The notes under the pieces are model-generated. The model was given only the letters and a program-made list of their open reading frames with translations, was not told where the DNA came from and ran no database searches. The translations under genes were made by a program, and so were the position numbers. DNA of 64,000 bases from Anabaena sp. UHCC 0204 (lineage in GTDB: Bacteria > Cyanobacteriota > Cyanobacteriia > Cyanobacteriales > Nostocaceae): contig NZ_VIKW01000018.1 in assembly GCF_009711975.1 (NCBI RefSeq), forward strand, positions 1 to 64,000, read 5' to 3'. Numbering within the stretch: position 1 is the stretch's first letter; each line of letters opens with the position of its first letter. Below are positions 16,944 through 32,538 of the stretch, piece by piece.

Positions 16944-18725
16944 TTACCGAATACTTGTCAAAGACGTACCTAACCAACCCGCAAATTTCTCTTGCTGAGA
17001 GAGATCAGGATTTTGGACTGGTACTAACTGATAATGATTGGGAATAGGTGCAGCTAAGGTGACACAATAAGTCCGGAGTTCATCTTGATGGAAAACAGTA
17101 ATTTGGATAGAATCATTTGGTTGATAATCCTTCAATCTTTCATTTAACTGATTTCCCACCTTAATTCCATCAATAGCTAGTAACTCATTTCCCGCATCAA
17201 TTCCCGCTTTTTGTGCAGGTGAACCTAATTCTACAAATTTAATTATTTCCCTACCATTTTCAGTATTTGTCCTCACACCCAAATAAGGTTCTTCTCGTTT
17301 ATCTTCAACTAATTGCAAACCAAAAGGTTGCAAATACTGATTAAATGGTAAATCGTCCAATCCATAAAGATAGCGTTGAAAGAAATCTCCTAAATCCATA
17401 CCAGCTACAGATGCAATCACTCCTTCTAACTGTTCAGGAGTATAACCAATTTCTGCTTTTCCAAATTCCTCCCACATTTGCCGCATCACATCATCTAAAG
17501 ATCGTTGATTTTCATGATGTACACGAATTAATAAATCTAACAAAAGTGACACCATTTCTCCTTTTAAATAATAGGAGATTTGGGAATTACCACTATTAGC
17601 ATCTGGACGATAAAGTTTAATCCAAGCATCAAAACTTGATTCTGATAAAGGTTGTACTTTTCGTCCTGGAGTGTTTAAATATCTAGTAATTTCCTTACTC
17701 AAATAGTTTAAATATGCCTTGGTATTATAAATACCTGCCCGTAAAGGAATTACTAAATCATAATAACTGGTTACTCCCTCACAAAACCATAAAGATGGTG
17801 TATAGTTTTCCTGATCATAATCAAACACTTCCAAACCTTGAGGACGAATTCTTTTAACATTCCATAGATGAAAGAATTCATGGGCAACTAATTGTAAAAA
17901 CGGTTCATATTTATCTTGATTCCGAAAACCAAACCGTTGATAAATTAAAGAACAAGAATTTTTATGTTCTAAACCGCCAAAAGCTTGCTGAAGTAAATGC
18001 AGAAAAAATACATATCTGTCATAAGGCAAACCACCAAACATTTTTGCCTCTACTTCAATGATTTTTTCAAAATCTGCAATCATTTCTTGTACTTGAAAAT
18101 TGCCTCTTCCCCAAATTGCTAATTCATGAGGTTTACCCAAAACTGCAAATTTGTATAATTGATGATCACCAATTTCAAAAGGACTATCAACTAAAGTATC
18201 AAAATCGGCTGCTAAAAAAGAATTAGTTGCCTCTGTAATTGTTGATAAACTTGTAGTAATTTGCCACTTTTCATTAGGAGGAATTATCGTTACTTGAATT
18301 GGTAAATGATCATAATTAGGGATTCTGAAAAATAACGCTGCACCATTAAAATAACCATGAGTAGGATCTAAATGATTTGTTCTAACTGTTAATTCATTAG
18401 CGAATATACGGTAAGTAATCGTAACTTCTGAAACATCACCTTTTTCTACTTGCCAATGGTTTTTACTAATTTTTCGCCAAGATAAAGATTCATTGTCACC
18501 AAAAGCAGCAAAATCTTGTAAATTTTTCTCATATTCCCTCACCAAATACGATCCAGGTGTCCACACTGGCATTTTTAAATCGAGAATTGAATTTGGGTAG
18601 TTAACAATTTTTAAAGTTATTTCAAATAAATGGGTTTCTGGTTGAGACATTCCCACTAAATAATGAATTTGTGGAGAGATATCTAGAATTTGATTGTGAA
18701 GATTAGACGCTGTTGCTTGAGTCAT
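16944..18725 (-). CDS. M61-family peptidase with PDZ domain
   Basis: A 593-residue protein of the glycyl-aminopeptidase (M61) family. It has an N-terminal beta-sandwich domain (about 20-190) with TPGSYLVREY, the zinc motif HEFFH (282-286) followed by LWNVKRIRP, and a substrate-recognition GGLEH (250-254). A PDZ domain is near 485-560 (PYLGVRTN, then SPAQKAGIDAGNELLAIDG). M61 enzymes cleave N-terminal Gly/Ala residues from peptides. No signal peptide is evident, so a cytoplasmic role in peptide turnover is likely. Domain order and length are normal for the family, and all catalytic residues are present. Confidence 0.93.
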   Translation of the reverse strand: MTQATASNLHNQILDISPQIHYLVGMSQPETHLFEITLKIVNYPNSILDLKMPVWTPGSYLVREYEKNLQDFAAFGDNESLSWRKISKNHWQVEKGDVSEVTITYRIFANELTVRTNHLDPTHGYFNGAALFFRIPNYDHLPIQVTIIPPNEKWQITTSLSTITEATNSFLAADFDTLVDSPFEIGDHQLYKFAVLGKPHELAIWGRGNFQVQEMIADFEKIIEVEAKMFGGLPYDRYVFFLHLLQQAFGGLEHKNSCSLIYQRFGFRNQDKYEPFLQLVAHEFFHLWNVKRIRPQGLEVFDYDQENYTPSLWFCEGVTSYYDLVIPLRAGIYNTKAYLNYLSKEITRYLNTPGRKVQPLSESSFDAWIKLYRPDANSGNSQISYYLKGEMVSLLLDLLIRVHHENQRSLDDVMRQMWEEFGKAEIGYTPEQLEGVIASVAGMDLGDFFQRYLYGLDDLPFNQYLQPFGLQLVEDKREEPYLGVRTNTENGREIIKFVELGSPAQKAGIDAGNELLAIDGIKVGNQLNERLKDYQPNDSIQITVFHQDELRTYCVTLAAPIPNHYQLVPVQNPDLSQQEKFAGWLGTSLTSIR

Positions 18726-18929
18726 TTTGCTTGTTGAGTTTTGAGTTATTAATCTATAGTTAACAATTCATCGTCAATCGTCAAGTATGGGAATAAAAGT
18801 TTATGATTACTTTTTAATGAGTATAATAACTAGGGATCTGGGAAAAGTATAAGATTTGGGAATAAAACCCGATTCCGAAAAAACTATTGGTTTCAAAGTA
18901 AACACGGTTTATATATCTGAAAAAAAATT

Positions 18930-18957
18930 GTAGAAACGTTCTATAAAACATCTCTAC
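18930..18957. repeat. GTAGAGACGTT palindromic repeat, degenerate copy
   Basis: GTAGAAACGTT, six bases, then AACATCTCTAC. It is the same hairpin family as copies at 21364, 25111 and 31415. It lies in the spacer (18726-19017) between two minus-strand genes. Confidence 0.65.
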
Positions 18958-19017
18958 AAGAGTTATGGAAAACTTTTGAATGAAACAATTATCAATTGTC
19001 AATTGATAAAAGGAATA

Positions 19018-20676
19018 TTATTTACCTGTACTAGGTTTGAGTGACAACAACATTTCCATTTGAGTTATTGATTTATTAGGGCTAGTGACAGTCACACCAA
19101 GTCCACGAATGGAAGCGAGGATAGCAGTAGCCTCTGAAGGTAAAGGTTGACTTTGAGCGGCTAAACGCTCAATTATGGTAGCGGTTTTGTCCATATCTAA
19201 ATAAAAATAACCACTATTGGGAGTTTGCAAAGAACTGGTTACAGTTTTAAAGGTATCAGTTTGATCAAGTGCTTGACCTTTACGATCTGCTAATGTTTCG
19301 GCAATAGGTCCGCCAATAGCCAGAAATACAGTATCATCATCTAGCCAACCATGAGCCAGAAGAGCGCCTTGTTGGGGAATTTGCCATTCTGTTACATTTT
19401 TACCACCAATTGTTCTTTGAGCAACATTGAGAGATTGTTGTTTAGCCAGATTATCGAGTTTAGTAAAGGTAGCTTCGGCAGTTTGGCGATCGCTCGTATC
19501 CAATACTAATGCACCTCCAAACCCGACATTGGCTAATAAACCTTGATTAGATTGAATCGCACCAAAACCAAATTCTCCATTCATCCATCCGAAAATATCT
19601 TTATCTAAATCTAATTGGAAATTTTTTAATTGACTCCGAGCTTGTTGAAGTCCTTGATTTAATTCTGGATAATCTTTTGATTGTTCAACTAGAGTTTGCC
19701 ACGTTTTACTAATCCCTTTGCCACTTGCTAACGCAAATGTTTCACCAGGAAATTGTCCGACTATTTTTGCGGGTGTGGTTTCATATTGAAATTTATTCAG
19801 TTGAGGATCTAAATTAACCACAGCTTTTAATCTCAATCCAGCGTCATCTACTCCTACAGCGGCAACAAGTGATTTCACTTGTTTAATTTGTGCCATAGTT
19901 TGTGGGGGCAATTGTCTCGTTTGAGAATTTAAAGCTGTTAATTGTTGTACCATATTGGCATAATCAGGTACATAAATTTGAGCTAGACTATTCTTAACAT
20001 CTACACTTTTGTTGAGAATATCACTTGCCCCTTCTTTCGTAGCAAAGGAAGGTTCACCTTTATAGGTATCAATAGCTTTTTCTACAGCTTGTTTATTTGA
20101 TGTTAAAAGCAAGTGGTCATTATTCAAAACTGTTGTATATGTAGGCTGACCTTGACCTTTAGTTTCAATAATTTTTTGCCCTTTGTAGTCTGATTCTTGA
20201 GTTTTGACATTTTTTTGCTCTTTCAACTTATTGGCAAAATTTAGAGCAGCCAGTTTATCCTTAATACCTACTACCAAGAGTATATTTGGTTCTTCCGATG
20301 AGCGTAAATTAGCCTGGGATACTTTTTTCGCTTCTGGTGGTAGTACCGCAATCATCACACCACCAACCCAAGGTTTAATATCTGCTTCGTAAGAAATTTT
20401 ACTATCACTCAATATTTCTTGGTTGAAATCTTTTAACCCTTTTGTCAATAATTGCTGTGCTTGAGGTGTACCAAACTGCTGCAACTTATTCCAGGATTCA
20501 GGATTAGTATCAATGTAAGTTGCCATTAATGCAGTTGCGGGTACTAACTTAGCACTACCTAAAGGGCTAGAACTTTCTGTACCGCCTTTGAGGTACATAT
20601 AAGCTGCTATACCTCCCGCTAAGATTACAGTAGTACCAATTACGGGAATTAAAAACGATGATTTCTTTTCAGACAT
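19018..20676 (-). CDS. DUF3352 domain protein
   Basis: A 552-residue protein with an N-terminal membrane anchor (SFLIPVIGTTVILAGGIAAY, about 6-27) and a long periplasm/lumen-facing beta-rich region. It matches the DUF3352 family common in cyanobacteria: ALMATYIDTNPESWNKL near the start, repeated segments with YKGQKI and KAVEKAID, and FGFGA later. No catalytic motif is known for this family. Gln, Lys and Ser content is high, consistent with an exported protein. It is monocistronic, with a long upstream spacer. Function is unknown, and a role in envelope maintenance is only a guess. Confidence 0.85.
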   Translation of the reverse strand: MSEKKSSFLIPVIGTTVILAGGIAAYMYLKGGTESSSPLGSAKLVPATALMATYIDTNPESWNKLQQFGTPQAQQLLTKGLKDFNQEILSDSKISYEADIKPWVGGVMIAVLPPEAKKVSQANLRSSEEPNILLVVGIKDKLAALNFANKLKEQKNVKTQESDYKGQKIIETKGQGQPTYTTVLNNDHLLLTSNKQAVEKAIDTYKGEPSFATKEGASDILNKSVDVKNSLAQIYVPDYANMVQQLTALNSQTRQLPPQTMAQIKQVKSLVAAVGVDDAGLRLKAVVNLDPQLNKFQYETTPAKIVGQFPGETFALASGKGISKTWQTLVEQSKDYPELNQGLQQARSQLKNFQLDLDKDIFGWMNGEFGFGAIQSNQGLLANVGFGGALVLDTSDRQTAEATFTKLDNLAKQQSLNVAQRTIGGKNVTEWQIPQQGALLAHGWLDDDTVFLAIGGPIAETLADRKGQALDQTDTFKTVTSSLQTPNSGYFYLDMDKTATIIERLAAQSQPLPSEATAILASIRGLGVTVTSPNKSITQMEMLLSLKPSTGK

Positions 20677-21491
20677 TAGTAGAACATCCTTATTTAAGTA
20701 AAATTTGTAACAACTTTTATGAAATATTCACTGCCTGGTGCGGGAATTTATCTAAATAGATTCTGACTTATTAATCCTTTTTTGATCATTATTCTTTGCT
20801 AATTTAACGGTATTTGCTGATAAAATTTAGTGTTTCGGCTCACCAAGTTAATTCACAATTGGCTCTAAATAATACTTCACTATGGTCAGGAATGAATCCG
20901 CAAATCATGTTTCATTTGTCAACATCGCTGCTTGAAAGGAAAAAAAAGCCAAAAAATTCTTCTTTCTCAATCCTTACTCTGGCAGTGCGAGGTAATTGTC
21001 AATTGTTTAAACCTAAATCCTTACGAAAACAATAGTCAATTTGTCACCTCCAAGCTATTCTAATAAATATATGAAAAATTGGTAGTATTTGTACTCAATA
21101 ACAATTGATCACGGATCAAGCTCGATTTGATCCGAGGCAGCCAGGAGTGCATAGACTATAAGGTTTTGAGTGTAGCAGAATATCTGTCAATCTGTGGACT
21201 TAATAGCGCCGACGCTACTAGGAGCAAACAGTAAGAAAATGTCAGACTGCGCTACACTTCATCAGAGAGATTGTTAGCATTTTTTGTATCAGTGCAAAAT
21301 ATAAGCTGACATCAGGGTATGCAGATGTGGAAGATGGGTAGATTACATCAAATCCTCCAACCTGTAGAGACGTTCCGGTGTAACGTCTCTAGTCAACAGT
21401 CATTTGGACTGGGGATATGCACCTGATAATGCTATTTATTATGACTTACATCCCATTAGACGTTTCAGGATTAGAAGGCTAGAAATTATCA
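20677..21491. other. 815-base spacer between DUF3352 and M1 peptidase genes
   Basis: No believable gene. It includes an 8-bp perfect inverted repeat, CGGATCAA (21112-21119) and TTGATCCG (21127-21134), and a GTAGAGACGTT palindrome at 21364-21391. The two flanking genes are divergent, so both promoters are expected. The length leaves room for an untranslated leader or a small RNA, but none can be identified. Confidence 0.55.
21364..21391. repeat. GTAGAGACGTT palindromic repeat
   Basis: GTAGAGACGTT (21364-21374), seven bases, then AACGTCTCTA (21382-21391). A hairpin-forming dispersed repeat, about 100 bases upstream of the M1 peptidase gene. Confidence 0.8.
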
Positions 21492-24065
21492 ATGTCGCAG
21501 TCTTATTTTGATATCGAAAAAACCGCACACAAACGGTTTGAGTTACCAGGGGCAAAACCACACTATAACCCTGATCGACCTGGACAGGTAGAGCATATTT
21601 TTCTGGATTTGAGTTTGGATATTCCCAATCAAAGTTGCTACGGATCGTGTAGCATTCGCCTATTGCCAGTCCGTAATGGGATTGATAGGTTAACTTTGGA
21701 TGCGGTAAATCTCAAGATTAAGTCTGTCCAGGTAGACGAAGTTGAGCAGAAGTTTGAATATGATGGCGAAAAACTGTGTATTCAACTGTCTCAACCGACA
21801 GAAATCGGTCATCGTTTGTTAATTGCGATCGCCTATGCAGCCGAAAAACCCCAACGGGGGATTTACTTTATTCAACCAGACAAACATTACCCCCACAAGC
21901 CTACCCAAATCTGGACTCAAGGTGAAGACGAAGATTCTCGCTTTTGGTTTCCTTGTTTCGACTACCCTGGACAATTATCAACTTCAGAAATTCGCGTCCG
22001 TGTTCCTAACCCTTTGGTGGCTATCTCCAATGGTGAACTAATTGACACTATACAGGAAGAAAAATACAAAACTTACCATTGGTCACAACAACAAGTTCAT
22101 CCTACCTATTTGATGACGTTAGCTGTTGGTGACTTTGCGGAAATTCGGGATGAGTGGCAGGGTAAAGCTGTTACCTATTACGTCGAAAAAGGGCGAGAAG
22201 CCGATGCTCAACGCAGCATGGGCAAAACTCCCCAAATGATCGAATTTTTGAGCCAAAAGTATGGTTATGCTTACGCTTTCCCCAAATATGCCCAAGTTTG
22301 TGTAGATGATTTTATTTTTGGAGGAATGGAAAATACTTCCACAACTCTATTAACTGACCGCTGTTTATTAGATGCACGTGCAGTATTAGATAATCGCAAT
22401 ACTGAAAGTTTAGTTGTTCATGAACTAGCACACCAATGGTTTGGGGATTTGGTGGTGATTAAACATTGGTCTCATGCTTGGATTAAGGAAGGTATGGCTT
22501 CTTATTCTGAGGTGATGTGGACAGAACATGAATATGGCGACCAAGAAGCCGCATATTATCGGTTGTCGGAAGCGCGGAGTTATCTCAATGAAGATAGCAG
22601 TCGTTACCGCAGACCAATGGTAACTCATGTTTACCGGGAAGCGATCGAACTTTATGACCGCCATATTTATGAAAAAGGATCTTGTGTTTATCACATGATT
22701 CGGGCAGAATTGGGCGATGAATTATTTTGGCAAGCTATCCAAACATTTGTTCAAGATCACGCTCATCAAACTGTCGAAACCATAGACTTATTAAGGGCTA
22801 TTGAAAAAGCCACAGGACGCAATCTGGCTTTCCTGTTTGATCAATATGTCTATCGTGGTGGACATCCTGATTTTAAGGTAGCTTATTCCTGGGATGGAGA
22901 TGCAAATTTAGCGAAGGTGACTGTTACCCAAACCCAAGCTAAAGCCGAAAGTAAGGATTTATTTAATCTCAGAATTCCCATTGGTTTTGGATATAAAGAA
23001 AATCCACAACTAACAACTTTTACAGTCCGGGTACATGAAAAGGAACAAAGTTTTTACTTTCCTTTAACACAAAAGCCTGATTTTATTAGTTTTGATGTTG
23101 GTAATAATTACTTAAAAACTGTCATTTTAGAATACCCAATTTCTGAATTAAAGGCACAATTAGAATTTGATCCTCATCCCATTTCTCGTATTTATGCAGC
23201 GGAAGCTTTAGCCAAAAAAGGCGGATTAGAAGCTACTTTAGCCCTATCCTCAGCTTTGAAAAATGATCCTTTTTGGGGTGTGCGAGTCGAAGTTGCTAAA
23301 GAACTAGCAGAAATTCAATTAGATCAAGCTTTCGATGGTTTAGTGGCTGGTTTAGATGATCCTAGTCCCTTTGTGCGGAAGGCAGTCATTAATTCTCTAT
23401 CAAAAATTAAAACTCATACTAGCTATAAAGCTGTCAAGGGTTTTGTGCAGAATGGGGATGAAAGCTACTATGTAGAAGCTGCTGCTTGTCGGACTATTGC
23501 AGCGATCGCAGCGGCGCATTTAGAAGATAAACCCCATGAAGATAAGGTAATCAAGTTACTCAAATCTGTGCTAGAAGAACGGGCAGGTTGGAATGAAGTT
23601 GTCCGGAGTGGGGCTGTAGCTGGTTTAGCTGAATTCAAATCTTCGGAAGCGGCTTTAAATTTACTACTGGAATACACAAAAATTGGTATACCGCAACCAT
23701 TACGCCTTGCAGCTATTCGCGCTGTCGGGAAAATTTCCAGAGGTCAAACTCCCGCTAATATTGAACGGATTTTAGATCGATTAGCGGAAATCGCCAGAGA
23801 GACTTTCTTTTTAACCCAGGTAGCAGTTTTGACAGCCTTGGGACAAATGGAAACCCCAAAAGCCATTAGTATTTTGCAATCTTTAGCCAATCAAACCGCA
23901 GATGGCCGTGTCCGTCGCTATGCGGAGGAAGAAGTCGCTAAAGTGCAAAAAAATATCGGTACAGACAAAACCCTACGTCATTTGCGTGAGGAACTAGATC
24001 AACTTAAACAGCAAAATCAGGAGTTGAAAAGTCGGTTGGAAAATCTGGAAGCGAAATCCAAGTAA
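21492..24065 (+). CDS. M1-family aminopeptidase with HEAT repeats
   Basis: An 857-residue zinc aminopeptidase. The exopeptidase motif GGMEN is at 277-281 and the zinc motif HELAH at 310-314, with the third ligand Glu expected about 19 residues later in HAWIKEGMASY. The M1 beta-domain is N-terminal (about 15-200). Beyond residue about 560, helical pairs with AAEALAKKG, FWGVRVEVAKELAEI and PSPFVRKAVINSL indicate HEAT-like repeats to about 800. A short coiled coil (about 828-857) ends the protein. It removes N-terminal residues from peptides in the cytoplasm. It is related to PepN and cold-active CPS41-type aminopeptidases. The first half is canonical, and the HEAT tail is common in cyanobacterial members. 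Confidence 0.93.
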   Translation: MSQSYFDIEKTAHKRFELPGAKPHYNPDRPGQVEHIFLDLSLDIPNQSCYGSCSIRLLPVRNGIDRLTLDAVNLKIKSVQVDEVEQKFEYDGEKLCIQLSQPTEIGHRLLIAIAYAAEKPQRGIYFIQPDKHYPHKPTQIWTQGEDEDSRFWFPCFDYPGQLSTSEIRVRVPNPLVAISNGELIDTIQEEKYKTYHWSQQQVHPTYLMTLAVGDFAEIRDEWQGKAVTYYVEKGREADAQRSMGKTPQMIEFLSQKYGYAYAFPKYAQVCVDDFIFGGMENTSTTLLTDRCLLDARAVLDNRNTESLVVHELAHQWFGDLVVIKHWSHAWIKEGMASYSEVMWTEHEYGDQEAAYYRLSEARSYLNEDSSRYRRPMVTHVYREAIELYDRHIYEKGSCVYHMIRAELGDELFWQAIQTFVQDHAHQTVETIDLLRAIEKATGRNLAFLFDQYVYRGGHPDFKVAYSWDGDANLAKVTVTQTQAKAESKDLFNLRIPIGFGYKENPQLTTFTVRVHEKEQSFYFPLTQKPDFISFDVGNNYLKTVILEYPISELKAQLEFDPHPISRIYAAEALAKKGGLEATLALSSALKNDPFWGVRVEVAKELAEIQLDQAFDGLVAGLDDPSPFVRKAVINSLSKIKTHTSYKAVKGFVQNGDESYYVEAAACRTIAAIAAAHLEDKPHEDKVIKLLKSVLEERAGWNEVVRSGAVAGLAEFKSSEAALNLLLEYTKIGIPQPLRLAAIRAVGKISRGQTPANIERILDRLAEIARETFFLTQVAVLTALGQMETPKAISILQSLANQTADGRVRRYAEEEVAKVQKNIGTDKTLRHLREELDQLKQQNQELKSRLENLEAKSK

Positions 24066-24102
24066 GTTAAAAAGGTGGTTAAAAACCACATCTACACAGG
24101 CA

Positions 24103-24122
24103 AAACCCACCTCCGTGGGTTT
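24103..24122. repeat. Hairpin AAACCCAC/GTGGGTTT
   Basis: A perfect 8-bp stem with loop CTCC between the M1 peptidase and CHAT genes. No T-run follows, so it is not a standard terminator. It may be another small repeat. Confidence 0.6.
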
Positions 24123-24174
24123 CAATCTGTGAATTGTATTCACCTCATGAGATTATCTAGGGAATGTCATTTTT

Positions 24175-27100
24175 ATGCCAGTGATTACCATTCGGGAACA
24201 ACAGCAAACAGCAATAGGATTTGCAGCCAGTCTCAGTTTTGGCGATGGTGAATATGACATTACCATTACTGACCCCTTTACTCCCCAGGAAGAACACGAA
24301 TTAGAATGGTATTTTGAAGAGTGGCTGGTTTTTCCCATGACTGGGACAGTCAAAGCTGAAAGGGCAAAAAACAGCGTTAAAACCTACGGTGAAAAGCTGT
24401 TTGACCAAGTTTTTCAAGATCGGAAAGCATACAGCAAATATCAACAACTTAAAAATAATCTCGGTCAAGTACAAATAGAAATAATTAGTAAAACGCCGGA
24501 ATTTCAGGCATTACATTGGGAAGCATTGCAAGACCCAGATTTTCCCCGACCTTTAGCTGTAGATTGTGTAATGCTGCGAAAAAGCGTTAACTCTGCTGTT
24601 GGGGCTGTAAATTTGCAACCTTCCCCAGTTATTAATTTGCTGGTAGTGGTAGCGCGTCCTGATGAAGAAAAGGATGTGGGTTATCGGACAATTTCCCGTC
24701 CTATGTTGGAGTTGATCAAAAATGGTCAATTGCGGGTAAAGGTGGAGTTGCTGCGTCCAGGCACATATCAAGCATTATCTCAGCATTTGGAAGCCAAAGG
24801 CGCGAATTTTTATCACATCATTCATTTGGATATGCACGGGGCGTTATTGACTCATGAACAGGTGCAGAAACCCGGTGCAGTTAATCGTTATTTATTCAAA
24901 GGACGCTATGGACGGGATGACTTGCAGCCTTTTGAGGGTATGAAGGCGTTTTTGGCGTTTGAGGGAGAGAGTCAGGGAAAGCTTGATTTGGTAGAAGCAT
25001 CGGAATTAGCCGCTTTGCTGACTGGTAAGGGTATTCCTGTATGTATTCTCAATGCGTGTCAGTCAGGTAAACAGGTGAAATCACCTCTCCCTCAAAATAA
25101 TCTAAATAATGTAGAGACGTTACATGGAACGTCTCTACAAAACACAGAAAAAGAGGTCAGAGAAACCAGTTTAGGAAGTCGGTTGATGAGTGCGGGAATG
25201 CAGATGGTGGTAGCAATGGGTTATTCTGTCACCGTGACTGCGGCTAAGTTGATGATGGAACATTTGTATAAACATTTGTTTGCAAATAAACCCATCACGG
25301 AAGCAATTAGATTAAGTCGGCGAGAATTGTTTAATGATAAGGAACGCAAAGCCTATTTTAATAAATTGATTAAATTAGAAGATTGGTTATTACCTGTGGT
25401 TTATTATAACCAGTCGGTGAATTTTAATTTACGTCAGTTTACACCAGAAGAAAAAGAGAAATATTTTGAAACTGTTGCTAGTGAATATCGGTTTACTTTA
25501 CCGACTTATGGCTTTGTCGGGCGAGATTTGGAAATTCTCAAAATTGAGAAGGCGTTGTTAAAACACAATATTTTGCTGTTGCAGGGTATGGGAGGAACAG
25601 GAAAAACAACTCTGTTAAATTATCTGCGGGAATGGTGGCAGAAAACCGACTTTGTTAAAAATGCCTTTTATTTTGGTTATGATGAAAAAGCCTGGACACT
25701 CGAACAAATTTTATTTTTCATTGGGCAGGAATTATATAAAAATGAGAAGGATAAACTTAAATTAGCTGAGTTTCAGGCAATGAATCTGATAGCGCAACAA
25801 GGGGAATTAATCACTAAATTTAAATCCGAAAAATACGCTGTGATTTTAGATAATTTAGAATCTATTACAGGACAACAATTAGCAATTCAAAATACATTAC
25901 CAGAACTAGAACAGAATCAAATCCGCGATTTTATTGGGCGGTTGGTTGGTGGTAAAACTTTAGTAGTTTTTGGTTCTCGCAGTCAAGAAGAATGGTTACA
26001 GCAACAAACTTTTAAATTCAATCTTTATGAATTGCAAGGATTAGATCAAGAAGCGCGGACGGAGTTAGCGGAGAAGATTTTAGAAACAAATATACCTCCA
26101 CACAAAATTGAGAAAATTCGCCAAGATGGGGATTTTCAGAAGTTAATGAAATTGTTAGCTGGTTATCCCTTAGCAATGGAAGTTGTGTTAGCAAATTTGC
26201 AAAAGCAAACACCACAGGAAATTTTACAGGGTTTGCAAGCAGCGGATGTAAATTTAGATGTTGCTAGTGAGGATAAGACTAAGAGTATTTTAAAATGTGT
26301 GGAATATTCTCACAGTAATTTATCACCAGAAGCGCAAAAATTACTGATTTGTTTAGCTCCTTTTAGTGGGTTTATACTTCGTGATGGTATTGATAATTAT
26401 ATCAATGAATTGCAGAAATTAGAGCTTTTTCAGAATTATCGGCTTGATAAACTTGATGATGCTATTCAAGAGGCAATTAACTGGGGTTTATTATCCCCAA
26501 TGGAGACAGGTTCACCTCTATTAACAATTCAGCCTGTATTTCCCTACTTTTTGAAAACTAAATTAGCAACGGTTGATACTGCAACTTGTGAAGCTTTGCA
26601 AGAGGGATTTAAAACCCATTATTTAGGTTTAGCTGGTTCTTATGATGAGTTAATGGAATCTAAAGATGCCCAAGAGCGACAATTGGGGATATTTTTCTGT
26701 AGTTTAGAATATGAGAATTTATATAATGGGTTACAAATTTGTTTGGATAAGCAAGAAGATATTAGTATATACTTATGTTTAGATAAGTATTTTGAATTAA
26801 GTCAAGATAATCTTAGTAACCTAAAATTAGCAACAACAATTTGTCAGCATTTAGATAATTATTCAACTACATTTATTAAGGGTGATTTAGGTTATCAAAT
26901 TCCATTTGCAATTCAACGATTGGGTAATTGTCAACTGTCATTACAGCAGTGCGAGCAAGCCAGACAATCCTACGAAAAGGCCTTGAAACTTTATGATGCA
27001 TTACAGTATGAAGACAAAAAACAAAAACAACTTTGGAAGGCAGATGTATACCATAATTTAGGAGTAGTTGCTCAAGGAATACGCAGATTTAAGGAGACAA

Positions 27101-27918
27101 AACTTTATTATCAACAAGCTTTAGCTATCAAAATTGAATATGGGAATAGAGATGAACAAGCTGCTACATACTACCAATTGGGACGAGTCACCCAAGAATT
27201 GCGGGAGTTTAAAGAAGCACAAAACTATTATCAACAGGCTTTGGATCTCTATATCGAATTTGATGACCCGTATGAACAAGCAAGGGCATACGGACAATTG
27301 GGTAATATAGCCCAAGAAACACGAAAATTTACAGAGGCTTTGTATTACTATCAACAGGCTTTGGATATCAAAATTAGATATCAGGATCGCTACTCACAAG
27401 CTGTGACTTATCATAATTTGGGAAATGTAGCCCAGGAGTTAGGCGAATATGCCCAAGCACGGGATTATTATCAACAAGCTTTAGCTATCAAAATCGAATT
27501 TGGTGATCGCTATTCTCAAGCTGGAACATACCACCAGTTGGGAATAGTAGCCCAACAAATGCGGGAATATGCCCAAGCACGGGACTTTTATCAACAAGCT
27601 TTAGCTATATTTATCGAATCTGATGATCGCTTTTCTCAAGCTAGAACTTACCACCAGTTGGGAACAGTAACCAAAGAAATGCGGGAATATGCCCAAGCAC
27701 GGGACTTTTATCAACAAGCCTTAGCTATCAAAACCGAATTTGGAGATCGCTATTCTCAAGCCTCAACTTACCAGAATTTAGGCCTACTTGCAGAAGCACA
27801 GGAGGATTATACAGAAGCGAGGGTGAATTTACAAAAAGCCTTAGAGATATATGTTGAATATAAAGATGAATATAGGGCGAATATTGCGAGGGAGATTTTA
27901 GAGAGATTACCGAAATGA
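24175..27918 (+). CDS. CHAT protease-like / P-loop NTPase / TPR protein
   Basis: A 1247-residue multidomain protein. Residues about 150-420 form a CHAT (caspase-like) domain with catalytic His221 (in LDMHG) and Cys295 (in LNACQSG). Residues about 440-720 form a STAND-type NTPase with P-loop GMGGTGKTT (471-479), YAVILDNLE as Walker B, and LVVFGSR as sensor. From about 900 to 1235 there are TPR repeats, including six 40-residue units in register (27061-27780). This layout, sensor repeats plus switch NTPase plus protease, resembles NLR-like and caspase-like proteins thought to act in bacterial immunity or programmed cell death. That role is inference here. A hicBA toxin-antitoxin pair lies downstream on the other strand. 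A small palindromic repeat is embedded in frame at 25111-25138. Confidence 0.92.
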   Translation: MPVITIREQQQTAIGFAASLSFGDGEYDITITDPFTPQEEHELEWYFEEWLVFPMTGTVKAERAKNSVKTYGEKLFDQVFQDRKAYSKYQQLKNNLGQVQIEIISKTPEFQALHWEALQDPDFPRPLAVDCVMLRKSVNSAVGAVNLQPSPVINLLVVVARPDEEKDVGYRTISRPMLELIKNGQLRVKVELLRPGTYQALSQHLEAKGANFYHIIHLDMHGALLTHEQVQKPGAVNRYLFKGRYGRDDLQPFEGMKAFLAFEGESQGKLDLVEASELAALLTGKGIPVCILNACQSGKQVKSPLPQNNLNNVETLHGTSLQNTEKEVRETSLGSRLMSAGMQMVVAMGYSVTVTAAKLMMEHLYKHLFANKPITEAIRLSRRELFNDKERKAYFNKLIKLEDWLLPVVYYNQSVNFNLRQFTPEEKEKYFETVASEYRFTLPTYGFVGRDLEILKIEKALLKHNILLLQGMGGTGKTTLLNYLREWWQKTDFVKNAFYFGYDEKAWTLEQILFFIGQELYKNEKDKLKLAEFQAMNLIAQQGELITKFKSEKYAVILDNLESITGQQLAIQNTLPELEQNQIRDFIGRLVGGKTLVVFGSRSQEEWLQQQTFKFNLYELQGLDQEARTELAEKILETNIPPHKIEKIRQDGDFQKLMKLLAGYPLAMEVVLANLQKQTPQEILQGLQAADVNLDVASEDKTKSILKCVEYSHSNLSPEAQKLLICLAPFSGFILRDGIDNYINELQKLELFQNYRLDKLDDAIQEAINWGLLSPMETGSPLLTIQPVFPYFLKTKLATVDTATCEALQEGFKTHYLGLAGSYDELMESKDAQERQLGIFFCSLEYENLYNGLQICLDKQEDISIYLCLDKYFELSQDNLSNLKLATTICQHLDNYSTTFIKGDLGYQIPFAIQRLGNCQLSLQQCEQARQSYEKALKLYDALQYEDKKQKQLWKADVYHNLGVVAQGIRRFKETKLYYQQALAIKIEYGNRDEQAATYYQLGRVTQELREFKEAQNYYQQALDLYIEFDDPYEQARAYGQLGNIAQETRKFTEALYYYQQALDIKIRYQDRYSQAVTYHNLGNVAQELGEYAQARDYYQQALAIKIEFGDRYSQAGTYHQLGIVAQQMREYAQARDFYQQALAIFIESDDRFSQARTYHQLGTVTKEMREYAQARDFYQQALAIKTEFGDRYSQASTYQNLGLLAEAQEDYTEARVNLQKALEIYVEYKDEYRANIAREILERLPK
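25111..25138. repeat. GTAGAGACGTT palindromic repeat inside the CHAT gene
   Basis: A perfect 11-bp inverted repeat, GTAGAGACGTT (25111-25121) and AACGTCTCTAC (25128-25138), with a six-base loop. It encodes residues 313-322 of the CHAT protein, 18 residues after the catalytic Cys295, without breaking the frame. The same repeat is intergenic at 18930, 21364 and 31415. Confidence 0.9.
27061..27780 (+). repeat. Six 120-bp TPR-coding repeats
   Basis: Units of exactly 120 bp begin at 27061, 27181, 27301, 27421, 27541 and 27661. The last three share long identical stretches such as GAATATGCCCAAGCACGGGA, which points to recent duplication or conversion within the sensor part of the CHAT protein. Confidence 0.9.
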
Positions 27919-27936
27919 TTAGAAATTAATAACTTT

Positions 27937-28158
27937 TTAAAGCACTTCCCATTCATCTCTGTTGATTTGAGCTTGTTTTAATATCTTTGCTAGTAAGCTT
28001 TTGCTAATATCTCCTTCATGGGGATTAGGAATTATTAATCTCACCTCATCTCTAACCATAAATTGATGTCTTGTCCCTGAATATGGACCCTCAAAACCAA
28101 GTTGTTTCAGGTAATAAATTAAATCCCGGCGACTAATAGCCCCAAAGCTTGGCATCAA
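27937..28158 (-). CDS. hicA: HicA-family toxin (mRNA interferase)
   Basis: A 73-residue protein of the HicA/YcfA family with a small double-stranded-RNA-binding-like fold: SRRDLIYYLKQLGF at the start, then GTRHQFMVRD carrying the catalytic His, and a C-terminal LLAKILKQAQI helix. HicA toxins cleave mRNA and tmRNA to halt growth until neutralised. It overlaps the upstream hicB by four bases (ATGA), giving antitoxin-first order. It lies convergent to the CHAT gene. Either of two adjacent Met codons could be the start, with the second (MPSF) outside the overlap. Confidence 0.9.
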   Translation of the reverse strand: MMPSFGAISRRDLIYYLKQLGFEGPYSGTRHQFMVRDEVRLIIPNPHEGDISKSLLAKILKQAQINRDEWEVL

Positions 28159-28397
28159 GCTACATCCTTTTTCAAAGAAAGGTAAATACCATCTAATTCA
28201 GGTATCTTATGTCCTAACTGCAATCCTAAAACAATCCATTCTTCCAAAGATTGTTTTAATTCTTCCCGACAATTTTCCAGTGTAGGTGCATTGGCATATA
28301 AACCTTGTAATTCAGGGACTTCAGCGTAAAAAGTACCATCATCTAAAAGTTCATATTTGGCTCGGTTTAAGGCTGCTTGAATGTACTCTGTTATCAT
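28155..28397 (-). CDS. hicB: HicB-family antitoxin
   Basis: An 80-residue protein with the HicB partial RNase-H-like fold: ALNRAKYELLDDGTFYAEVPEL, followed by GLYANAPTLENCREEL and LEEWIVLGLQLG. It is the antitoxin of the downstream hicA, translated just before it. This short type lacks a C-terminal DNA-binding helix-turn-helix, so autoregulation would rely on another mechanism or be absent. Pairing, order and overlap are typical of HicBA modules in cyanobacteria. Confidence 0.9.
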   Translation of the reverse strand: MITEYIQAALNRAKYELLDDGTFYAEVPELQGLYANAPTLENCREELKQSLEEWIVLGLQLGHKIPELDGIYLSLKKDVA

Positions 28398-28511
28398 TTT
28401 TTTGTCTAATGTTCACTCTGGTAATCCAAATTTTTAGCTCAAGTCTAGCTCTCTGATGACATTGTAAGCTGAAAATTAAAATCCTATATATTTGTGTAAT
28501 AGACTATTCCA

Positions 28512-28536
28512 GGACGGGGAAACCCCGCCCCTACAT
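28512..28536. repeat. Hairpin repeat GGACGGGGAAACCCCGCCC
   Basis: GGGG-AAA-CCCC-centred palindrome directly after the stop of the 160-residue gene (minus strand) and before hicB. It is a small dispersed hairpin that could serve as a terminator. Confidence 0.5.
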
Positions 28537-28542
28537 CATAAA

Positions 28543-28992
28543 TTATTTGGCTGGGGGTAAAGTTCCACCACTAGCAACCGGCGGTTCTGTGTAATCGCAA
28601 AAGATATTTACCCCTATTTTCAGGATATACAAAACTATAACAGTAGCGATCGCTGGATCAAGAGGTAAACCACTAGATGAGGCTAAACCCACTAAAGAAA
28701 CTATTGCACCTGTGAGTAGAGGAGAACTACCGGGATTTTTCGTATATTCCTTGATTTGACCACGAAATCCGTCATCACCGCAAAGCTCATTTCGCAAAGT
28801 TTTCAGGGTGATATCCCACAGAGATTTACCTTCCACCATCATGGCTTGACCATTTTTTTCTTGCCATAAATCTTGAAAAGCCATTTCCATGTCGCCATTA
28901 TGCCTTTCTAAATGAGCCATTGCTTCCAAGCCGGGGGTATAATCGGGCATTAATTCCCGCATAGCTTGGATTTCACTGCTGGTTACTTGCAT
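28543..28992 (-). CDS. Hypothetical protein with UBA-like N-terminus and membrane tail
   Basis: About 149 residues from ATG 28992 (a TTG at 29025 would add 11). Residues about 5-45 (AMRELMPDYTP, then HLERHNGDMEMAFQDLW) have the helical pattern of a UBA/CUE-like fold, with GD-E-A-L spacing. The C-terminal half has one or two hydrophobic helices (LTGAIVSLVGLASSSG and IATVIVLYILKIGVNIF) before a Pro-rich end. No enzyme motif is seen. It resembles conserved cyanobacterial proteins of unknown function. It is monocistronic, upstream of hicBA on the same strand. A membrane-linked adaptor role would be speculation. Confidence 0.65.
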   Translation of the reverse strand: MQVTSSEIQAMRELMPDYTPGLEAMAHLERHNGDMEMAFQDLWQEKNGQAMMVEGKSLWDITLKTLRNELCGDDGFRGQIKEYTKNPGSSPLLTGAIVSLVGLASSSGLPLDPAIATVIVLYILKIGVNIFCDYTEPPVASGGTLPPAK

Positions 28993-29295
28993 AGCTGATT
29001 GAGATTGTTTACTGAGTGGTGTCAAAATTAACTACATTATGGAAAGGCATTAGTCATTAAAAAAAGATAAAATACCCCAGATATAACCAAAAAGTTTGTA
29101 CTTTTATAAAGTATAATTAAGAAATAGATAAATAAATCTAGCTAAATAGGCTTAGTTCGTCACCTATTGCTCCTAGATGTGGTTAAAGTTTCTTTACTAG
29201 AGCAAAAACTACCATTTTCCTGTGTTAACTACTAAGTTAGCATTCAGGATGACGGTGAATGTATCAATTTCCCAGTTGGAGAGGCAAATAAAGGC

Positions 29296-30972
29296 GTGGG
29301 TCAGTATCAACCTGCTGAATTAAAGCAGTATAATCCAGAGGCGATCGCTCGTTACTTTCGTTACCGTCCCTGGTTAGCCTGGGGACGATTACTGAGAATC
29401 TTATGGTCTTTTGCAGGATTTATACTTAGTCTCAAATGGGACGAATGGCAAGATCAGGTGGAGGAAAATCAAGGGAAACGCGCTACCGAGTTGCGAACCC
29501 TTCTCACCCGTCTGGGTCCGACATTTATCAAAGTTGGTCAAGCCCTTTCGACTCGTCCCGACTTAATCCGCAAAGATTTTTTAGAAGAACTGATCAAGCT
29601 ACAAGACCAGTTACCACCTTTTGATAATGGTCTGGCATACCAGATTATTGAAACAGAGCTAGATCGCTCAATTAGCGAAGTTTTTCGGGAACTTTCCCCT
29701 CAACCCGTAGCAGCGGCTAGTTTGGGTCAAGTCTACCGGGGACGGTTACTGAGTGGTGAAGAAGTGGCTGTGAAGGTACAACGCCCCAACTTACGCCCTT
29801 TACTGACAAAAGACTTGTATCTCATGCGTTGGGCTGCCAGTTGGCTTGCTCCTTGGCTACCGCTGAATCTTGGTCACGATTTAACTTTAATTGTTGATGA
29901 GTTTGGCACAAAGTTATTTGAGGAAATTGATTACATCAATGAAGGCCGCAATGCGGAAAAATTTGCCCATAATTTCCGTAATGATCCTCAAGTAAAAATT
30001 CCTAGTATTTATTGGCTTTATACCAGTAATCATGTTTTAACACTGGAATGGATTAACGGCTTTAAACTCACAGATACTCAAAATATCCAAGCGGTAGGTC
30101 TCAACCCAGAGGACATTATTCAAATTGGTGTCACTACAGGTTTGCAACAACTATTAGAGCATGGTTTTTTCCATGCCGATCCTCATCCTGGCAATTTGTT
30201 CGCTATGCCCGATGGTCGCATGGCTTACATTGACTTTGGCATGATGGATCAGTTGGAAGAAACAACTAAGGAAAGTTTAGTTGATGCTTTAGTGCATTTG
30301 GTCAATAAGGATTACACCGATTTAGCTGAAGATTTTGTCAAATTGGGCTTTTTAACAGCAAATACTAATATTGCTCCTATTGTGCCGGCTTTAGAAGCTG
30401 TACTAGGAAACGCTATTGGTAAAAATGTCAAGGACTTTAACTTCAAAACCATTACTGATGAGTTTTCGGAATTGATGTATGAATATCCTTTCCGTGTACC
30501 GGCGAAGTTTGCTTTAATTATTCGTTCTTTGGTGACACAAGAAGGTATTGCTCTCAGTCTCAACCCCAATTTCAAAATTGTGGAAGTGGGTTATCCCTAT
30601 ATCGCCCGGCGGTTATTAACTGGCGAATCTCCAGCATTGCGGCGGCGGTTATTGAATGTATTGTTTAAAGATGGTAAATTCCAGTGGCAAAGGTTAGAAA
30701 ACCTCATTACCATTGCTCGGACTGATAGCCAATTTGATGTTTTACCAACAGCAAAAATGGGTTTGGAATTCATCCTTTCAGAAGAAGGTAAATTTCTCCG
30801 TCGTCAGTTGGTATTAGCTCTCACTGAAGATGACCGTTTACACACAGAAGAAGTCCAACGTCTATGGGATTTAGTCAAGGATGATTTACCACCAAATCGC
30901 TTACTAAATGTTGCAATTAGCCTATTAACCGAGTTCTCAAAAGAAGGTGTAGCTGCTATTTTGCCTAAATAA
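29296..30972 (+). CDS. ABC1/UbiB-family atypical kinase
   Basis: A 558-residue protein starting at GTG, with GGAGAGG (29277-29283) 12 bases upstream. The ABC1K hallmarks are clear: KxGQ region TFIKVGQALSTRPD, the Ala-rich loop AAASLGQVYRG replacing the Gly loop, VAVKVQRPN with the catalytic Lys, HADPHPGN (293-300) and DFG (313-315). C-terminal helices include LIIRSLVTQEGIALSLNPNF. The family (UbiB, COQ8, plastid ABC1Ks) supports quinone and prenyl-lipid metabolism at membranes. In cyanobacteria, plastoquinone or tocopherol maintenance is the likely role, though this is inference. A small membrane-protein gene follows after 46 bases. Confidence 0.92.
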   Translation: MGQYQPAELKQYNPEAIARYFRYRPWLAWGRLLRILWSFAGFILSLKWDEWQDQVEENQGKRATELRTLLTRLGPTFIKVGQALSTRPDLIRKDFLEELIKLQDQLPPFDNGLAYQIIETELDRSISEVFRELSPQPVAAASLGQVYRGRLLSGEEVAVKVQRPNLRPLLTKDLYLMRWAASWLAPWLPLNLGHDLTLIVDEFGTKLFEEIDYINEGRNAEKFAHNFRNDPQVKIPSIYWLYTSNHVLTLEWINGFKLTDTQNIQAVGLNPEDIIQIGVTTGLQQLLEHGFFHADPHPGNLFAMPDGRMAYIDFGMMDQLEETTKESLVDALVHLVNKDYTDLAEDFVKLGFLTANTNIAPIVPALEAVLGNAIGKNVKDFNFKTITDEFSELMYEYPFRVPAKFALIIRSLVTQEGIALSLNPNFKIVEVGYPYIARRLLTGESPALRRRLLNVLFKDGKFQWQRLENLITIARTDSQFDVLPTAKMGLEFILSEEGKFLRRQLVLALTEDDRLHTEEVQRLWDLVKDDLPPNRLLNVAISLLTEFSKEGVAAILPK

Positions 30973-31018
30973 TCCCTCTGCTAATAAAAACGAATTTTAA
31001 TAACACTCAGGAGTTTTA

Positions 31019-31399
31019 ATGTACTATTACCCTCTGCAACCGCCTTACTTTTTACTATTAGTTGGTTTTCTCACTGCTTTAACTTCTGGCATAGCTTTAT
31101 CTGGAACATTAAAAGTAATTGTCCAGCAATGGCCAAAGGATAAGTCTACTGAAGAGAAAACAAATACCCGTTCTTTTTATAAACAATTATTAGTACCATT
31201 CTTTGGGATTACTGCTGGTGTTTGTTTATTTCTCTCTTGTGGTTTAGAGATATTTGGTTTTCCCTCTGGTTTAGCTGTAGGTGTGGGTTTACCAATGAGT
31301 CTGCTAACTTGTGTATTTGTTTGGTGGCAGTTAGGAGGTTTGTTAGATTATGTTAAAACCCAAGGAATGCAATCTTTAGATTTAGATTCTTGGTCTTAG
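31019..31399 (+). CDS. Small membrane protein, 126 aa
   Basis: Three hydrophobic segments are seen (about 9-32, 58-80 and 85-107), with a basic cytoplasm-like loop between the first two (VIVQQWPKDKSTEEK). No motif was recognised. It starts 46 bases after the UbiB-type kinase on the same strand, with AGGAG (31008-31012) 6 bases before the ATG, so cotranscription is likely. It might be a membrane partner of that kinase, but nothing in the sequence proves it. Confidence 0.75.
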   Translation: MYYYPLQPPYFLLLVGFLTALTSGIALSGTLKVIVQQWPKDKSTEEKTNTRSFYKQLLVPFFGITAGVCLFLSCGLEIFGFPSGLAVGVGLPMSLLTCVFVWWQLGGLLDYVKTQGMQSLDLDSWS

Positions 31400-31414
31400 A
31401 TATAAAATCAATAT

Positions 31415-31442
31415 GTAGAGATTTTTTAAGAAACGTCTCTAC
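31415..31442. repeat. GTAGAGACGTT palindromic repeat, degenerate copy
   Basis: GTAGAGATTTTTT... and AAACGTCTCTAC. The right arm is intact and the left arm is eroded. It lies just past the membrane-protein gene and could form a terminator-like hairpin. Confidence 0.6.
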
Positions 31443-31608
31443 ATTCAAACTCTATATTTGGCTTTTTACCTATTTCATCAAAATAGCTAAGTAGGTAGGT
31501 GGGAAAACTTATAACTATGTCATTGCGAGTGGAACGCAGCAATCCCAGGAGTTTTGGATAATTTACAGTTCGTTACATAGTTGGGTTGATTAGCATCTAC
31601 CTACTTAA

Positions 31609-32538
31609 TCACTTCTTTTTTATTTGCCGGATTTGGTTTTTGACATTATCAACAGTTTCTTGCAACTGACTTTTTTTTACAGGTGCGGGAATAGTAGCAG
31701 GTGGTAAACTAGGATGCAAATTCCGATAATATTCCCAAATTTCCCAATATGGACAACCTGGTTGAATTTTAATTCCTGCCCAATGAATGTATTGTAGAGG
31801 TTGATTGACTGTTGGATCAAATAAGGTATTACCTTGAATTTGAAAATGTGGTGTTCCTCCCCAATTTCCTGGTCCTTTACCTTCCCTACGGACGATGTTA
31901 AAACGCCGGGGAATACGCTTTAGTAGCATATAGTTGATAATTGGTTGATCTGAGGTTTTTTCAGAAAAATCAAAGTATTCTGGATGGGATGCACATTCGG
32001 TAAATGTTTCATACAAGTCATTTTCGGAAATTAAGTTTTTCTTAGAACCCCAAAAACCACCGTTGAAAATTTCTTTAACTTCATTATTTGTAAATACTTT
32101 ATTTTCTAGGACTTGGGAGCTAAAAACGTTTTTAATTCCCCCTAAATGTTGATAATCACAACAGATAAAGTCAGTATTTGCTAAATAATTAAGATTATCA
32201 ATTATTTTTTCAAAGACAACAATATCAGTATCAATATACAAAAATTCATCAAATTCTCCAAACCAGCAAGCTTGTTTACGAAATTGATTAGGACGAGCAA
32301 AAAATTTACCCCCAAAGGTTTCGTATAATCTTTGGGAAAGACGATCAATAAAATCTAAGTCTTCGTAAACTTTTACGCCATAATTTTCCCCCAGAATATC
32401 AGCAATAGCGTGATAATTGTCATCATAAGGAATCATGACAACTGGTGTTTCAGTATCATGTAATCGAATGCTATTCAGGAGAGCGATCGCTTGATCTGTC
32501 ACCTTATCATTAGCAATAATATAAATTCCCCTAGTCAT
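31609..32538 (-). CDS. GT8-like glycosyltransferase, Npun_R2821/R2823-type family
   Basis: A 309-residue protein with a GT-A style nucleotide-sugar fold. The N-terminus GIYIIANDKVTDQAIALLNS opens the domain and a DxD motif appears in LYIDTDIVVF. It ends with DQPIINYMLLKR, a QPLQYIHWAG segment typical of sugar-transferase folds, and a Lys-rich tail. It is paralogous to the next gene upstream in the operon, which has the same opening (ANDKVYDQLIALLNS). The likely role is sugar transfer in surface polysaccharide or glycolipid assembly, with sugar and acceptor unknown. It is the last gene of a nine-gene minus-strand cluster. Confidence 0.8.
   Translation of the reverse strand: MTRGIYIIANDKVTDQAIALLNSIRLHDTETPVVMIPYDDNYHAIADILGENYGVKVYEDLDFIDRLSQRLYETFGGKFFARPNQFRKQACWFGEFDEFLYIDTDIVVFEKIIDNLNYLANTDFICCDYQHLGGIKNVFSSQVLENKVFTNNEVKEIFNGGFWGSKKNLISENDLYETFTECASHPEYFDFSEKTSDQPIINYMLLKRIPRRFNIVRREGKGPGNWGGTPHFQIQGNTLFDPTVNQPLQYIHWAGIKIQPGCPYWEIWEYYRNLHPSLPPATIPAPVKKSQLQETVDNVKNQIRQIKKK

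Follow-up and report, generated by a model that had tools for sequence, protein, structure and literature searches.

Does a mobile repeat that is translated close to the active site of a protease become part of the working enzyme, or is it tolerated there? The question is raised by a CHAT gene of Anabaena sp. UHCC 0204, in which a 28-bp palindrome that is dispersed through the genome is read in frame. We propose that it occupies a permissive linker which has repeatedly taken in in-frame mobile repeats, and that it is quite probably tolerated rather than domesticated. By the window we mean the whole stretch of 64,000 nucleotides that was analysed, which lies on contig C9 of a genome, G000, that comprises 5.74 Mb in 83 contigs.

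The host gene and its product

The open reading frame at 24175–27918 (plus strand) specifies a protein of 1247 amino acids, in which a domain scan recognized a CHAT domain (PF12770, E-value=1.9e-17, 64.1 bits against a cut-off of 24), an NB-ARC/NACHT-like region scoring slightly below both curated cut-offs, and TPR repeats. The presumed catalytic residues are His221, which is part of an HG motif (codon at 24835–24837, plus strand), and Cys295 (codon at 25057–25059, plus strand); together with G222 they are invariant in all 34 aligned proteins. Locus L117 was kept out of the 34-row alignment by an in-frame stop, but its linker was read and it entered the gene tree with 46% of the columns; an alignment of 29 rows omits L027.

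The gene was found in three of the 16 genomes of the genus, namely G000, G008 and G011. With the linker excluded, dN/dS lies between 0.10 and 0.20 in nine of the ten pairs formed by five sequences, from which we conclude that the gene is under purifying selection outside the linker; the highest value, 0.39, belongs to the closest pair (L017–L018). Comparison of the TPR part (window 27100–27900) with L085/L086 gave many overlapping alignment pieces, which suggests that close relatives differ in their number of TPR copies. Since the PADLOC match is confined to the TPR part, no defence role is claimed for this protein. Two peptidase genes lie nearby, one for an M61 peptidase with a PDZ domain (16944–18725, minus strand) and one, directly upstream of the CHAT gene, for an M1 peptidase with HEAT repeats (21492–24065); a DUF3352 gene sits between them (window 16944–24065).

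The palindrome and its family

The 28-mer at 25111–25138 (plus strand; GTAGAGACGTTACATGGAACGTCTCTAC) begins exactly with codon 313, and the next two bases complete codon 322, giving VETLHGTSLQ as residues 313–322. The reading frame and codon positions thus bear out the initial annotation, which described a hairpin that adds this peptide to the CHAT protein in frame. Its placement "just after" Cys295 holds as to direction, the actual distance being 18–27 residues. On either strand two of the three frames through the repeat are open, and translation is therefore possible.

In the whole genome, GTAGAGACGTTNCATGNAACGTCTCTAC occurs in 22 exact copies (two N allowed) and in 64 copies at up to three mismatches, against none for a reversed-pattern control, so that the palindrome is not a chance pattern. 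The copy at 25111 differs by one base from the family consensus GTAGAGACGTTCCATGGAACGTCTCTAC, itself a perfect palindrome. That this stretch has nothing to do with the repeats, being coding sequence of coincidental or ancestral origin, is accordingly next to inconceivable, given that 27 of its 28 bases are those of a consensus drawn from dozens of dispersed copies and that the repeat is missing from 48 of 51 orthologue rows. Copies with at most one mismatch are present in 26 of 27 genomes, which were hand-picked rather than random, and judged by sequence the family is a small palindromic dispersed repeat of heterocystous cyanobacteria. Of 100 ends of palindrome copies that were counted, 76 have T at position -1, which makes a 30-bp unit of the form T...A possible. 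Nostoc is said to carry comparable small dispersed repeats (SDR; reportedly Elhai et al. 2008), which are 21–27 nt long, occur in heterocystous cyanobacteria and are often nested in minitransposons; the likeness is one of description.

RNA folding gave -15.3 kcal/mol for the 28-mer (z=-6.2; z=-5.1 in a context of 108 nt), with an 11-bp stem that starts at the first base and in which GTAG pairs with the terminal CTAC. A hairpin of this stability might act in the mRNA, through pausing, decay or translation control. It lies deep within the reading frame, however, with no T-run 3' of it and no Rfam match at gathering score in window 18000–32000, and most orthologues are read without it. Neither the folding nor the Rfam scan offered evidence for a role in the mRNA, and we consider one very unlikely.

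Three further sites in the window, all intergenic and on the plus strand, had been annotated as exact copies of the hairpin. All three are diverged relatives: those at 18930–18957 and 31415–31442 have five and six mismatches to the consensus, respectively, and that at 21364–21392 is 29 nt long and on folding keeps the arms around a 7-nt loop, with the last base changed. A search of the window with the 25111 sequence at up to three mismatches returned only 25111 itself.

Several intergenic copies, L002, L004, L013, L051, L053 and L077, and also L010, L060 and L061, lie mid-way in larger shared units whose outer parts are GGCGTTGCTGA-like or AGATATCTCC-like, which suggests that the intergenic copies are nested in MITE-like elements. 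The genome has four Y1_Tnp matches, of which two are adjacent on one contig. In the 3.1–3.4 kb around each of them no family copy (at least 19 of 28 bases) was located, and no link to a transposase is claimed.

The linker in orthologous genes

The palindrome is contained in a hypervariable linker comprising residues 299–328 (KQVK...EKEV; 25069–25158, plus strand), which orthologue alignments place between ..CQSG and RETSLGSRLM. In five close orthologues, four of them 89–92% identical in protein to that of the window, K299–K302 and E327–A370 are identical in all five. Between these identical flanks the linker differs in kind among G000, G019 and G175. In G008 and G011 the position of the window palindrome is taken by the consensus palindrome without a mismatch, next to which there are small differences that keep the frame; in two orthologues of 90% and 89% identity, which belong to other genera, it is taken by different dispersed repeats. 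The G019 linker contains a GTGGGACAGGC...GCCCAACCCAC repeat. A search of its own genome with this repeat, in which 40 of 87 candidates were scored, gave 51 match rows at 41 places, the linker copy being counted among them. The G175 linker contains CCTCTCCC...GGGAGAGG hairpins, with 22 rows at E≤1 and 14 at E≤0.001, its own copy included; that of G054 contains a related type (18 rows, eight at E≤0.001). These own-genome searches covered the linkers alone, and the stem comparison described below is the sole within-gene control.

A still different element occupies the linker of Prochloron (L101). It is 91 bp long and MITE-like, with CAGGACTTACGCA ends and 13-bp terminal inverted repeats, and is flanked on both sides by CTCAA, a 5-bp target duplication which brings the total to 96 nt, or 32 codons. 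By these marks it is the footprint of a frame-keeping transposition. The linkers of Elainella and of some other strains are probably tandem heptamers.

Linkers were readable at 60 of 69 CHAT loci. Outside the cyanobacteria (five loci) they measure 5–7 amino acids; within them, they measure 10 in four Microcystis, 11–16 in many Nostocales, and at the longest 47 in Prochloron and 49 in Elainella. At nine loci (L108–L111, L119 and L120–L123) no linker was recognized by pattern. Among these, Scytonema L109 has a G019-like linker peptide, shortly after which the frame stops; in Scytonema tolypothrichoides L111 the CHAT frame ends in the same linker (around 3877–4000) and is followed by a frame that possibly resembles a transposase; in Coleofasciculus L108 similarity is gone right after the Cys (after 3889); and L110 runs into the contig end.

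Orthologues with and without the repeat thus exist, the palindrome being found in G000, G008 and G011 and other linkers elsewhere. Three carriers among 51 non-duplicate orthologue rows do not agree with the possibility, raised in the initial annotation as one that would refute its reading, that all orthologues encode this sequence without DNA-level similarity to the repeats. No clean empty site of the GTAG palindrome was found in the CHAT gene among the orthologues compared, and the 30-nt insertion is therefore one that we infer.

Stem lengths were compared within each gene, the longest perfect stem of a linker being set against 118–127 equally long windows from its own gene region. In nine of 47 distinct linkers, among which the sister rows L017/L018 and L021/L022 are non-independent, the stem is longer than in every control window. 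All nine belong to the 16 longest linkers, the other seven of which are unexceptional; for L020, one of 120 control windows matches the stem length.

A gene tree of 51 rows was calculated by a quick method with the linker excluded, after dropping eight loci that repeat genomes already included and one identical row; 20 of its 48 inner branches have support below 80. The hairpin-type states change at least seven times on this tree, or 11 times with the tandem labels, all of which, like the state labels of L022, L035 and L044, were assigned by resemblance only. The three palindrome carriers do not group, G000 joining G019 and G175 (support 86), and this leaves shared ancestry of the insert uncertain.

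Predicted structure of the CHAT domain

An AlphaFold model of residues 1–462, built from 34 diverse sequences, reached a pLDDT of 77.8 and a pTM of 0.80; an earlier model from 29 close sequences (pLDDT 43) was discarded. Foldseek and VIA-align matched the model to TPR-CHAT/Csx29 chains (Z up to 20.6), separase (Z up to 19.0) and the caspase-6 zymogen, procaspase-6 (Z about 10). The predicted fold thus resembles those of Csx29/TPR-CHAT, separase and caspases, and the host protein combines the conserved HG...C residues with a caspase-like fold, as far as the model can be relied upon. A sequence profile of the protein retrieved nothing from the PDB at E≤1. We know of no repeat-filled linker in Csx29/TPR-CHAT, separase or caspases. 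The openly licensed PMC literature, among the matches listed, held no account of a repeat-occupied CHAT linker, and a search with a 9-mer gave, among the matches listed, no title on cyanobacterial repeats.

Confidence is low (pLDDT<50) at residues 303–329, and also at 234–248 and 439–453. The model puts VETLHGTSLQ inside the first of these stretches, a probably disordered loop adjoining the active-site strand, which is in line with the surface loop that the initial annotation considered. In the alignment the other two stretches do not vary in length to a comparable degree, so that disorder alone does not explain why this site varies. From its position after the Cys strand, we take the linker to be in the place of the caspase p20/p10 inter-subunit linker, an assignment which depends on the model.

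Inter-subunit linkers of caspases act as cleavable activation linkers or gates. The inserted peptide could in the same way tune the protease, as a cleavable activation linker or an active-site gate, and would then be truly domesticated, as was initially thought. The predicted location, directly behind the Cys strand in a caspase-like fold, points in this direction, as do cyanobacterial linkers that exceed the 5–7 amino acids of the five non-cyanobacterial loci; that the palindrome is retained near-intact in three species could also mean a use. Yet linker sequence, length and repeat family vary even among orthologues that are 89–92% identical and share identical flanks, as is typical of a spacer that is tolerated and free to vary. 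Moreover, five orthologues with a 12-amino-acid linker (L029, L031, L032, L034 and L036) keep open frames of 1222–1351 codons, and the gene therefore looks intact without any insert. We regard domestication as improbable.

The reading we prefer remains that of a permissive linker. It would lie outside the folded core of the CHAT domain, and in-frame insertions would survive there for that reason. Unrelated repeats would have entered it repeatedly, among them the palindrome, two other dispersed hairpin repeats, a MITE-like element and probably tandem heptamers, and older ones would have eroded or been replaced. The repeat peptide would be a neutral flexible spacer, with selection acting upon the frame and the core and not upon the insert.

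In-frame copies in other genes

The coding context was examined for 125 copies of the palindrome, comprising 50 of the 64 in G000, seven of the 108 in G054, and all those with at most one mismatch in G019 (28), G021 (22) and G020 (18). Nine copies, that in the CHAT gene included, are embedded in frames of 150 codons or more and have no fewer than 25 codons to each side. Seven of the nine in-frame peptides are of the VETFHGTSLQ type, and two (CRDVPWNVST and CKDVPWNVST) come from the second open frame. Besides CHAT, the host genes recognized by family scans, which left out one frame (L061), were SMC, AAA_16, TPR, Mfd-like, SufD, LysA and PrmC. The loci L249 and L254 (both in G020), L200 and L209 (both in G019) and L011 (G000) represent LysA, PrmC, Mfd-like, SufD and AAA_16. 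The SufD frame has its copy at residue 31, a position that may precede the true start. PDB alignments around the repeat, to homologues that are distant, show a net excess of about 4 residues in LysA and 7–9 in PrmC.

In G000 the palindrome is also in frame in a TPR protein (L069/L182, G000:C49:72-499). Eight congeners (L183–L190) are comparable at the site, five of them having decayed palindromes and three another hairpin-like sequence. Such a site raises the alternative that the CHAT linker is a preferred target, in which repeats seed repeats through nesting, short-repeat recombination or transposase targeting of palindromes. In the window itself CACCTCTCCCT (25082–25092, plus strand), which by sequence comparison also opens a different repeat in the linker of G175, adjoins the palindrome and may be a remnant of an older repeat; and in Scytonema L111 the frame comes to an end within the linker, next to what may be a transposase frame. 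Survivorship, however, gives the same pattern if insertions elsewhere in the domain are lost. Targeting is a possibility that we entertain with some doubt, and we continue to favour a linker that is simply permissive.

The copy in SMC (L007/L124, G000:C10:15746-16173), identified by family scan, lies in frame before the hinge match. No gap is seen at this site in any of 44 genomes, comprising all 16 of the genus and 28 others which were hand-picked and non-random (L125–L139, L154–L181). The site being of one length throughout, the repeat is length-neutral there, the 28-mer or a decayed form of it occupying the same ten codons. The match to the 28-mer is 20 or more bases in 23 of the 44 genomes and 11–18 in the remaining 21, which lack a clear palindrome. 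It reaches at least 26 in six (G000, G006, G012, G022, G054 and G037), the near-perfect forms being scattered over lineages, with a loop of the CCATGG type in G000, G006 and G022 and GCATGC in G054 and G037. In G037 the match is 26, both differences forming the GCATGC loop, and the rows grouped with it, G048 and G016, have 13 and 11. With the cut placed at 20, the SMC tree requires five changes, on a topology from a quick method in which 10 of 41 inner branches have support below 80.

From these sequences, the palindrome may have overwritten existing SMC codons. An insertion offset by a deletion of the same length, recombination among strains and repeated decay of older copies are further options, between which and overwriting the data do not decide. 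More generally, the family might spread in part by in-place overwriting that leaves length unchanged, besides insertion, a suggestion we think rather unlikely but worth stating. A hairpin or single-stranded copy would anneal through partial homology and convert the target. If true, coding sequence would be replaced by copies of an element of less than 30 bp, and repeats would have a novel way of spreading.

Comparison with known repeats

For palindromic repeats that are read in frame, the closest parallel is in Rickettsia. According to two sources (PMC2229807, PMC10969869), Rickettsia palindromic elements (RPE) occur in frame in unrelated conserved protein genes, where they are apparently tolerated; one of these papers puts their length at 105–146 bp, the other at about 150 bp. 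The window palindrome is likewise a palindromic mobile repeat in frame within genes, but it is cyanobacterial and only 28 bp long, perhaps 30, well short of the RPE range of about 105–150 bp, and the likeness between the two is one of description.

For short palindromes within genes the closest parallel is the GTAG superfamily of REP sequences (Di Nocera et al. 2013, PMC3733652). These are short high-copy palindromes with a GTAG end, with families in Anabaena and Nostoc and with GTAG-12, -15 and -16 in cyanobacteria; some are intragenic, many of these in repair or replication genes. The window family has the expected size (28 bp, within 20–40 bp), dispersion (64 copies) and GTAG end, and its intragenic copies also fall in repair and replication genes, SMC and Mfd-like. 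The same source has the tag of GTAG REPs unpaired at one end, which is one of their defining features, and RAYT transposases as their presumed mobilizers, whereas the GTAG of the window palindrome is paired with CTAC.

Conclusions

Palindromic repeats translated in frame thus have precedents, in Rickettsia RPE and in intragenic REPs, and the novelty lies in a linker that has been occupied time and again. From SMC comes the further question by what means repeats of less than 30 bp are mobile at all. The orthologue linkers form a natural series in which the neutrality of inserts can be tested, and their apparent position, that of a caspase-type inter-subunit linker, is a good reason to test their function. 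One protease linker occupied in turn by unrelated repeats would represent a route from non-coding mobile DNA to protein sequence.
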